From contig CM049309.1 in NCBI GenBank assembly GCA_026874595.1, positions 94,262,723 through 94,326,722 of the forward strand: a stretch of DNA of 64,000 bases, read 5' to 3'. The notes beneath the pieces were generated by a model. It saw only the letters and a program-made list of their open reading frames with translations, was not told where the DNA came from and did no database searches. Shown one piece after another: positions 1 through 49,027 of this stretch. Within the stretch, counting starts at the first letter, position 1, and each line of letters begins with the position of its first letter. This stretch comes from Sipunculus nudus. Lineage: Eukaryota > Annelida > Sipuncula > Golfingiida > Sipunculidae. A program made the position numbers and the translations under genes.

Positions 1-598
1 AAGAAGAGAGACGCTGTTCTGATCCTGCCATTTGTATGTATAGTACAGGGGCAGGTAGGTCCGTAAGAAGAGAGACACTGTTCTGATCCTGCCATTTGTA
101 TGTATAGTACAGGGGCAGGTAGGTCCGTAAGAAGAGAGACGCTGTTCTGATCCTGCCATTTGTATGTATAGTACAGGGGCAGGTAGGTCCGTAAGAAGAG
201 AGACGCTGCTCTGATCCTGCCATTTGTATGTATAGTACAGGGGCAGGTAGGTCCGTAAGAAGAGAGACACTGTTCTGATCCTGCCATTTGTATGTATAGT
301 ACAGGGGCAGGTAGGTCCGTAAGATGAGAGACGCTGTTCTGATCCTGCCATTTGTATGTATAGTACAGGAGAAGGTAGGTCCGTAAGAAGAGAGACGCTG
401 TTCTGATCCTGCCATTTGTATGTATAGTACAGGGGCAGGTAGGTCCGTAAGAAGAGAGACGCTGTTCTGATCCTGCCATTTGTATGTATAGTACAGGGGC
501 AGGTAGGTCCGTAAGAAGAGAGACGCTGTTCTGATCCTGCCATTTGTATCTATAGTACAGGGGAAGGTAGGTCCGTAAGAAGAGAGACCCTGTTCAGG
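1..598 (+). repeat. HELQ: 64-bp tandem array made of an upstream HELQ exon 3' end plus its splice donor (about 9.3 copies)
   Basis: Units start at 1, 65, 129, 193 and so on to 577. Each holds 57 nt that read RKKRDAVLILPFVCIVQGQ, followed by gtaggtc, a good splice donor. The peptide matches the HELQ segment just before exon A (animal HELQ has a VLMILPYVAIVQEK-like stretch), and it ends in phase 0, as exon A needs. Copy 6 (321-384) alone reads VQEK at its end, the conserved form; most copies read VQGQ and the last full copy VQGK. Reading past a donor gives V-G-P-stop. The copy joined to the exon body, and so the real exon end, is probably at or upstream of base 1. Which copy is spliced in vivo cannot be read from the sequence. 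Confidence 0.9.
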
Positions 599-599
599 T

Positions 600-48622: not shown

Positions 48623-49027
48623 CAGATTACACCATCAGCCACCAGAAGTCAAGGTCACATATTTTACGAGTGGTCAACTAAGTGCCTCCCTCTGTCTGCA
48701 CCTCATAGTCAGGAAGAGCTTTGAAATATTACACCAACATCTGCCAGAAGTCAAGGTCACAGATTTTACGGGTGGTCAACTAACTGCCATCCCTCTGTCT
48801 CCACCTCATAGTCAGGAAGAGCTTTGAAATATTACACCATCATCCGCCAGAAGTCAAGGTCACAGATTTTACGGGTGGTCAACTAACTGCCATCCCTCTG
48901 CCTGCACCTCATAGTCAGGAAGAGCTTTGACAGATTACACCATCATCCGCCAGAAGTCAAGGTCACAGATTTTACGGATGGTCAGCTGTCTCTCTGTCTG
49001 CACCTCATAGTCAGGAAGAGCTGTGAA
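48548..49027 (+). repeat. HELQ: 103-bp tandem repeat spanning the HELQ stop codon, about 5 copies
   Basis: Unit: gtcaaggtcacagattttac + gggtggtcaactaactgcca + tccctctgtctgcacctcat + agtcaggaagagctttgaaatattacaccatcatccgccagaa. Copy 1 is coding; the other four lie after the stop and each would encode [15 protein letters not shown]-stop if read. Copy 5 is shortened (ggatggtcagctgtctc) and ends ctgtgaaggcatg. Confidence 0.92.

Follow-up and report, generated by a model that had tools for sequence, protein, structure and literature searches.

Tandem arrays across exon-intron boundaries of a Sipunculus nudus HELQ gene, and a modest excess of such arrays at exon edges in other genes

Tandem repeats lying over exon-intron boundaries were named mirages in the amphioxus Adh3 gene and were then found in globin genes (PMC3087553). 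In the accessible parts of that report, globin mirages occur at both types of boundary, retain the AG or GT of the splice site, are unstable in length, and have boundary copies that stand outside the homogenisation of the array. Reverse transcription PCR suggests that these globin genes are spliced normally, and the arrays were proposed as a route to new introns (PMC3087553). The lancelet PGBD5 gene also carries mirages, and TnC is cited in the portion of that report available (PMC3902484). In lancelets, boundary-spanning minisatellites have been described gene by gene (PMC3087553, PMC3902484). Here we describe arrays of this kind in the HELQ gene of the annelid Sipunculus nudus, exons A to O of which lie in a stretch of 64,000 nucleotides (the window: assembly GCA_026874595.1, 1.43 Gb, contig CM049309.1, positions 94,262,723 to 94,326,722 of the forward strand; G000:C4:94262723-94326722 in our numbering), together with a count of such arrays in a sample of other genes from the same genome.

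The exons of HELQ were picked from open frames and splice motifs and then joined. The 16 exons so obtained (pre-A, then A to O) form a single frame in which the only stop is the terminal one, at 48622, and the product carries the Pfam domains DEAD, Helicase_C, HTH_61 and POLQ_helical. From the length of the product after the helicase, and from general knowledge, we take the gene to be HELQ and not POLQ. A search of the Protein Data Bank with one short exon gave no match. Tandem arrays were called with Tandem Repeats Finder (TRF) on the window and on the 20 kb upstream of it (stretches L001 and L002).

Seven of the 31 HELQ splice edges are crossed by tandem units, at three donors (pre-A, B and M) and four acceptors (H, K, L and O). 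Six of these are TRF arrays that hold the splice edge of the adjoining exon; the seventh, a duplication at the B donor, is absent from the TRF list. The units span the boundary, occur on both the donor and the acceptor side and keep AG or GT, as in the lancelet mirages of Adh3, BflGb6, BflGb9, PGBD5 and TnC as far as the available text describes them. We therefore read the HELQ arrays, with a probability of about 0.8, as minisatellites of the lancelet mirage kind, that is, as segments containing a junction that were copied in tandem and amplified within introns. In the part of the report at hand, amphioxus BflGb6 shows the same anatomy and the same behaviour of the boundary copy as the HELQ arrays (PMC3087553). 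Unit length differs from locus to locus in mirages, from 10-72 bp in Adh3 to about 150-160 bp in the globins by the accounts available, and it differs among the HELQ arrays too (Table 1).

The arrays belong to a known kind, here at unusual scale and in what is probably a new lineage for it. Against the lancelet mirages described in the accessible text, they are larger (about 187 copies of a splice site, here called decoys, over 12 kb in the largest) and affect seven edges of one gene. The same lancelet texts report assays of splicing and instability, whereas the present arrays are described from the sequence of one assembly. An earlier, preliminary description of the window had listed eight boundary sets in HELQ. 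Seven do lie at splice edges; the array at the stop codon and 3' untranslated region (UTR) is real but contains no splice edge. The pre-A array, put at about nine copies, is cut by the start of the window: it begins at L002:8574, takes in the whole of L001 and ends at window position 595, a length of about 12 kb that holds 187 decoy donors, and the real end of the pre-A exon lies some 11.4-11.5 kb upstream of the window. The duplication described at the B donor is present, in two copies and not in two to three. Among the HELQ edge arrays, H includes the least exon sequence (about 5 bp) and L the most (about 57 bp), and the units of the H and M arrays are nearly all intron.

Table 1. Tandem arrays and exons of HELQ (window positions) and edge-spanning arrays in sampled genes
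Feature	Position	Strand	Description
Pre-A donor array, downstream end	1..595	+	64-bp unit: about 54 bp exon, donor, about 10 bp intron
B donor duplication	3275..3374	+	two copies, 57 bp apart, 34/41 bases alike; one decoy
H acceptor array	11980..13541	+	63 bp, 24 decoys, about 5 bp exon; AG in 14/24
K acceptor array	27041..32694	+	124 bp, 45 decoys, about 45 bp exon per unit; AG in 45/45
L acceptor array	36880..37346	+	unit of about 111 bp with about 57 bp exon; 5 copies, counting the exon
M donor array	41786..43379	+	77 bp, 20 decoys, about 10 bp exon; GT in 20/20
O acceptor array	47818..48474	+	57 bp, 10 decoys, about 14 bp exon; weak decoy context, TGGAG vs TTTCAG
Stop codon/3' UTR array	48547..49027	+	103 bp, 4.7 copies; no splice edge
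38-bp array, intron K-L, control	33132..36835	+	spans no edge (TRF)
Exon A	2449..2649	+	frame-continuous splice
Exon B	3236..3311	+	frame-continuous splice
Exon C	8942..9039	+	frame-continuous splice
Exon D	9380..9487	+	frame-continuous splice
Exon E	9714..9859	+	frame-continuous splice
Exon F	10506..10745	+	frame-continuous splice
Exon G	11554..11695	+	frame-continuous splice
Exon H	13537..13641	+	frame-continuous splice
Exon I	17488..17707	+	frame-continuous splice
Exon J	24204..24361	+	frame-continuous splice
Exon K	32649..32747	+	frame-continuous splice
Exon L	37297..37470	+	frame-continuous splice
Exon M	41681..41794	+	frame-continuous splice
Exon N	47312..47446	+	frame-continuous splice
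Exon O, last, with stop codon	48461..48622	+	frame-continuous splice
Sampled edge-spanning acceptor arrays (8)	L003, L042, L047, L071, L087, L129, L136, L141		read by eye
Sampled edge-spanning donor arrays (3)	L089, L128, L134		read by eye

The units are unrelated to one another. Pairwise comparison of the HELQ edge units gave no cross-matches at E<=0.01, the units of K, H, M, L and O matched their own locus only in the whole genome (by a search that skips very common words), and no match to the edge arrays was found elsewhere in the window or in the sampled stretches. The view of the preliminary description that these were separate local events, each seeded from its own exon edge, is upheld by these results. 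They also bear on the idea that dispersed introner-like or satellite elements were inserted at splice sites, for which the presence of splice sites in arrays of different genes could be cited. Introners are related elements spread across many introns; all five scored HELQ units are instead confined to their locus and hold the neighbouring exon's own codons, which leaves this explanation with hardly any credibility. An assembly artefact is highly improbable as well: long arrays are difficult to assemble, but the copies differ at many positions (the HELQ edge arrays have a TRF match of 91-97%), the contig has a length of 97.5 Mb, and similar arrays occur in other genes.

The dinucleotides of the decoys are largely preserved. 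GT is intact in 186 of the 187 pre-A decoys and in all M decoys, and AG in all decoys of K, of O (10/10) and of L (3/3), and in 14 of the 24 in H. When splice sites were scored with a simple home-made matrix (the "real" score of H and L being that of an identical-looking copy), the real site exceeded all decoys of M and of O, and all but one of the 45 in K, while in pre-A 180 of the 187 decoys scored as high as the real donor or higher. The intact AG or GT of most decoys could be taken to mean that selection has favoured the arrays as reserve splice sites or as regulators of splicing. This is very unlikely, given the loss of AG in the H array, the weak decoys of O and the uniformly lower scores of the M decoys. 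Moreover, use of a decoy would usually shift the frame, because three does not divide unit lengths such as 64, 77 and 124. That HELQ is regularly spliced despite its decoys is indirectly suggested by the frame that remains intact through 16 exons.

Comparison of copies within arrays revealed a difference between the interior and the working edge. Decoy columns within the K, pre-A and O arrays are on average 97-99% alike, while most K copies differ from the working edge at 20-24 of 88 positions, most pre-A copies at 4-9 of 64, and O copies at 5-7 of 36. Homogenised inner copies with a boundary copy outside them were thus seen in three of the five arrays examined, a pattern that fits unequal exchange and conversion within the intron while selection holds the copy bound to the exon. 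Of the other two, H has inner copies that differ little from its working copy (mostly 1-5 differences in 61 positions), with no separate homogenisation, and the comparison for M had only 7 copies. Across the HELQ and sampled arrays, a unit includes anything between about 1 and 57 bp of exon, which indicates that the breakpoints keep no set distance from the splice site.

These features suggest a model in which a DNA segment, some 25 to 145 bp long, that chances to hold an exon-intron junction is duplicated in tandem, probably by replication slippage or template switching. The copies would then, in many cases, be multiplied within the intron by unequal exchange and conversion, while the exon copy would stay fixed because the working splice site and codons sit in it. 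Correct splicing would presumably be maintained because the site closest to the real exon is the one used.

Similar repeats have been reported outside lancelets. Human genes in segmental duplications have variable internal tandem repeats at exon-intron boundaries, with 27 intron modifications remaining after manual checks (PMC2812944). These, like the HELQ arrays, are minisatellites at exon-intron boundaries; as the accessible text describes them, they hold about four units of 30 bp on average, are found in genes that were duplicated recently, and can give rise to new introns (PMC2812944), unlike the long intronic arrays beside conserved exons seen here. Intron gain by tandem duplication of AGGT-containing exon sequence has been reviewed (PMC3443670). 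Such duplication shares with HELQ the tandem copies carrying potential splice sites but, in the sections of the review available, creates the new intron inside an exon, whereas the HELQ copies lie in existing introns. Dual-specific AGGT splice sites are known in tandem-repeat genes such as UBC (PMC10809524), whose units, like those of HELQ, contain splice-site motifs. By the portion of that paper at hand, UBC-type units are coding monomers, while HELQ units mix intron and exon ends and stand outside the reading frame. An intronic minisatellite is mentioned in abalone, with no exon edge noted in the passage of that paper available (PMC6905558). Among the papers listed in the literature searches there was no report of such arrays from a mollusc and no count of how often they occur at exon edges.

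To ask whether edges are struck more often than by chance, an array was defined as a TRF call with a period of at least 20 and a score of at least 100, each array was collapsed to one unit, and seeding was taken as uniform (in HELQ, 31 edges in 30.8 kb). Between the pre-A exon and the 3' UTR there are 15 such arrays. Six span a splice edge, against 1.98 expected (P=0.0056). Five of those that do not (units of 341, 341, 332, 167 and 134 bp) are dispersed repeats that recur elsewhere in the window and in the sampled genes, and without them 6 of 10 arrays span an edge, with 0.66 to 1.51 expected (P from 1e-5 to 9e-4). All P values for HELQ are post hoc, the gene having been picked for this feature. 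The contrast is smaller than first described: eight of eleven arrays had been placed at edges and only three were said to avoid them, where the TRF count is 6 of 15, with nine spanning no splice edge. Random seeding, moreover, had been expected to strike an edge rarely, and its chance of doing so in HELQ is roughly 4-12% per array (units of 38-124 bp).

An independent sample of genes was assembled from Pfam matches to myosin, kinesin and DEAD (set 1) and to SNF2, giving 143 stretches with 269 kb, 211 exons and 422 edges. Set 1 took 47 of 75 myosin, 97 of 126 kinesin and 12 of 51 DEAD matches, and 153 of these 156 were used. The myosin and kinesin rows are matches without internal stops, copied by hand, with at least one such row (C2:44854097) missing, and the DEAD rows were hand-picked among those on chromosome-sized contigs. 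For SNF2, 58 of 89 matches were taken, on chromosome-sized contigs and some with internal stops, other chromosomal ones being left out. In set 1, edge windows were not enriched in local copies, and the test was therefore moved to one event per array.

Thirty-eight sampled arrays exceed the threshold, and the units of 11 span a listed edge, compared with 4.02 expected under uniform seeding (P=0.0009) or 5.36 if the largest period is taken as the unit (P=0.011). Requiring at least 5 bp on each side, which removes L003 (about 1-4 bp of exon overlap) and L089 (3 bp), leaves 9 against 3.35 to 4.75 expected (P 0.005 to 0.035). The bulk of the signal comes from SNF2, with 5 of 14 arrays against 1.0 to 2.0 expected (P 0.002 to 0.034). 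Two cases were left uncounted although they look edge-spanning, namely L118, at the donor of an unlisted exon, and a 25-bp array at the L128 acceptor (score 93); L120 and L030, whose arrays miss the edge by 6 bp and about 22 bp, were scored as non-edge. Edge-spanning arrays are therefore real and not confined to HELQ, and across genes edge-spanning units are two- to threefold more frequent than uniform seeding predicts. The proposed enrichment in other genes is thus present (11 of 38 against 4.0 to 5.4) but modest.

Such arrays are found at 11 of the 422 sampled edges (2.6%), which suggests that boundary arrays recur in this genome; in the text available, the lancelet reports describe single genes, and the present figure is a cross-gene estimate. 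HELQ, with 6 to 7 of 31 edges, is an outlier and an extreme cluster of edge arrays (Fisher P from 4.6e-4 to 6.6e-5, post hoc). Given the low overall frequency, and fewer local copies in set 1 edge windows than in introns, the idea of the preliminary description that exon edges are generally the favoured place finds no support. The arrays form a natural set for testing the fidelity of splicing amid many decoys and how intron gain by duplication begins.

As the cause of the excess of edge-spanning units we favour survivorship, tentatively and at a little under even odds: other intronic arrays can be lost altogether, but one that contains the sole working splice site cannot. A number of results weigh against the excess or against this cause of it. 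Set 1 alone is weak (6/24 arrays where 2.7 to 3.4 would be expected, P 0.04 to 0.10), and with 5 bp of overlap weaker still (4/24 vs 2.4 to 3.0, P 0.20 to 0.35). Edges were called by eye without blinding, and an automatic count of arrays no more than 30 bp from the end of a match gave 13 of 38 against 8.6 expected, less than the count by eye. As positions, edges are poor in local copies: in set 1 they occur in 2 of 152 acceptor edge windows against 5-9% of windows at 200-500 bp into the intron, and in 1 of 153 donor edge windows against 1-4%; in HELQ they occur at 4 of 31 edges against 6 to 13 of 29-31 windows 150-500 bp away. Survivorship should also aid arrays just beside exons, and these show no excess (4 arrays within 50 bp of an exon but not spanning its edge, 4.0 expected). 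Finally, it predicts that edge arrays are older, and their percent match is lower only at P=0.10 (median 83 for 12 edge arrays, L118 included, vs 87.5 for 26 others), while the HELQ edge arrays, at their match of 91-97%, are not visibly older.

The same figures could mean that arrays originate uniformly and that the excess comes from a constrained exon copy that aids detection, from unblinded calls and from the selection of HELQ. The P values of up to 0.035 under the strict overlap with the largest period, the mostly non-significant results of set 1, the looser automatic count and the not negligible chance of an edge strike in HELQ all favour such bias and chance. On the other hand, both sets deviate in the same direction, SNF2 does so by itself, and arrays of many copies (L087, L042, HELQ pre-A) need no detection advantage. 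We regard this explanation as unlikely, though one that carries real weight, and rank it behind survivorship.

Exon edges might instead be mutational hot spots, where replication or repair in transcribed DNA duplicates junctions more often; borders of nucleosomes or of base composition, or pauses of RNA polymerase linked to splicing, are examples of where this might happen. This concerns the cause of the excess only. The excess is restricted to spanning units and is found at 3 donors and 8 acceptors of unrelated genes, and the concentration in HELQ is what a process acting at the level of the gene would give, although HELQ was picked. Arrays just beside edges, however, are not in excess, and as positions edges are covered less than intron interiors. 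It is doubtful, but worth serious consideration, that junctions are true duplication hot spots in this lineage, copied repeatedly in many genes through transcription, splicing or exon chromatin. If they were, hot spots would leave an array at a few percent of exon edges and many in some genes such as HELQ, and would give an ongoing supply of duplicated splice sites as raw material for introns outside lancelets. There is a small chance that the excess has some other cause. Residence time as the sole cause, near-exon DNA being older, was ruled out by the absence of an excess among non-spanning arrays within 50 bp of exons.

Several further repeats were observed in and around HELQ. Intron G-H (window 11696-13536) is nearly filled by two arrays, with 19-bp and 63-bp units, that abut end to end. 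Upstream of the pre-A exon, at L002:5468-5574, an in-frame two-copy tandem duplication of 54 bp lies within a long open frame, possibly the N-terminal part of HELQ. Units of about 341 bp (also 332 and 167) form short tandem runs at window 4024-6658, 15857-17155, 24962-25806 and 26393-26810. The 341-, 332- and 167-bp arrays match L019, L035, L057, L100 and L104, and the 134-bp array matches L076; the units of about 341 bp seem to be a dispersed repeat family prone to tandem runs.

Among the sampled stretches, the array at L118:1359-1500 has 32-bp units, each with an acceptor-like and a donor-like site, over the donor of an apparent kinesin exon, which we take to be kinesin from its SSRSH motif. 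Several of the contigs C60 to C90 (L146 lies on C61, of 2.2 Mb) are bacterial, with closely matching gene hits. The best genome match of a cytochrome oxidase gene on a bacterial contig is 58% identical, to an Oligoflexia metagenome-assembled genome, and these contigs could represent a symbiont or contamination. Joined exon pieces of the muscle myosin match squid best among Protein Data Bank chains (304 bits); scallop chains (277 to 288) overlap with vertebrate cardiac ones (up to 282), and fly reaches about 250-254. One exon by itself did not separate these groups (squid 194, vertebrate 193, scallop 192-193). Taken alone, the comparison with these chains would make a mollusc or a near relative the likely host; haemocyanin, tried as a molluscan marker, gave no match, and neither did its control. 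In a muscle myosin gene (L014, L015), one segment (QANPVLEA...NNNSSRF) is represented by no fewer than three similar exons. Mutually exclusive exons occur in scallop myosin, and the similar exons here are perhaps mutually exclusive as well.
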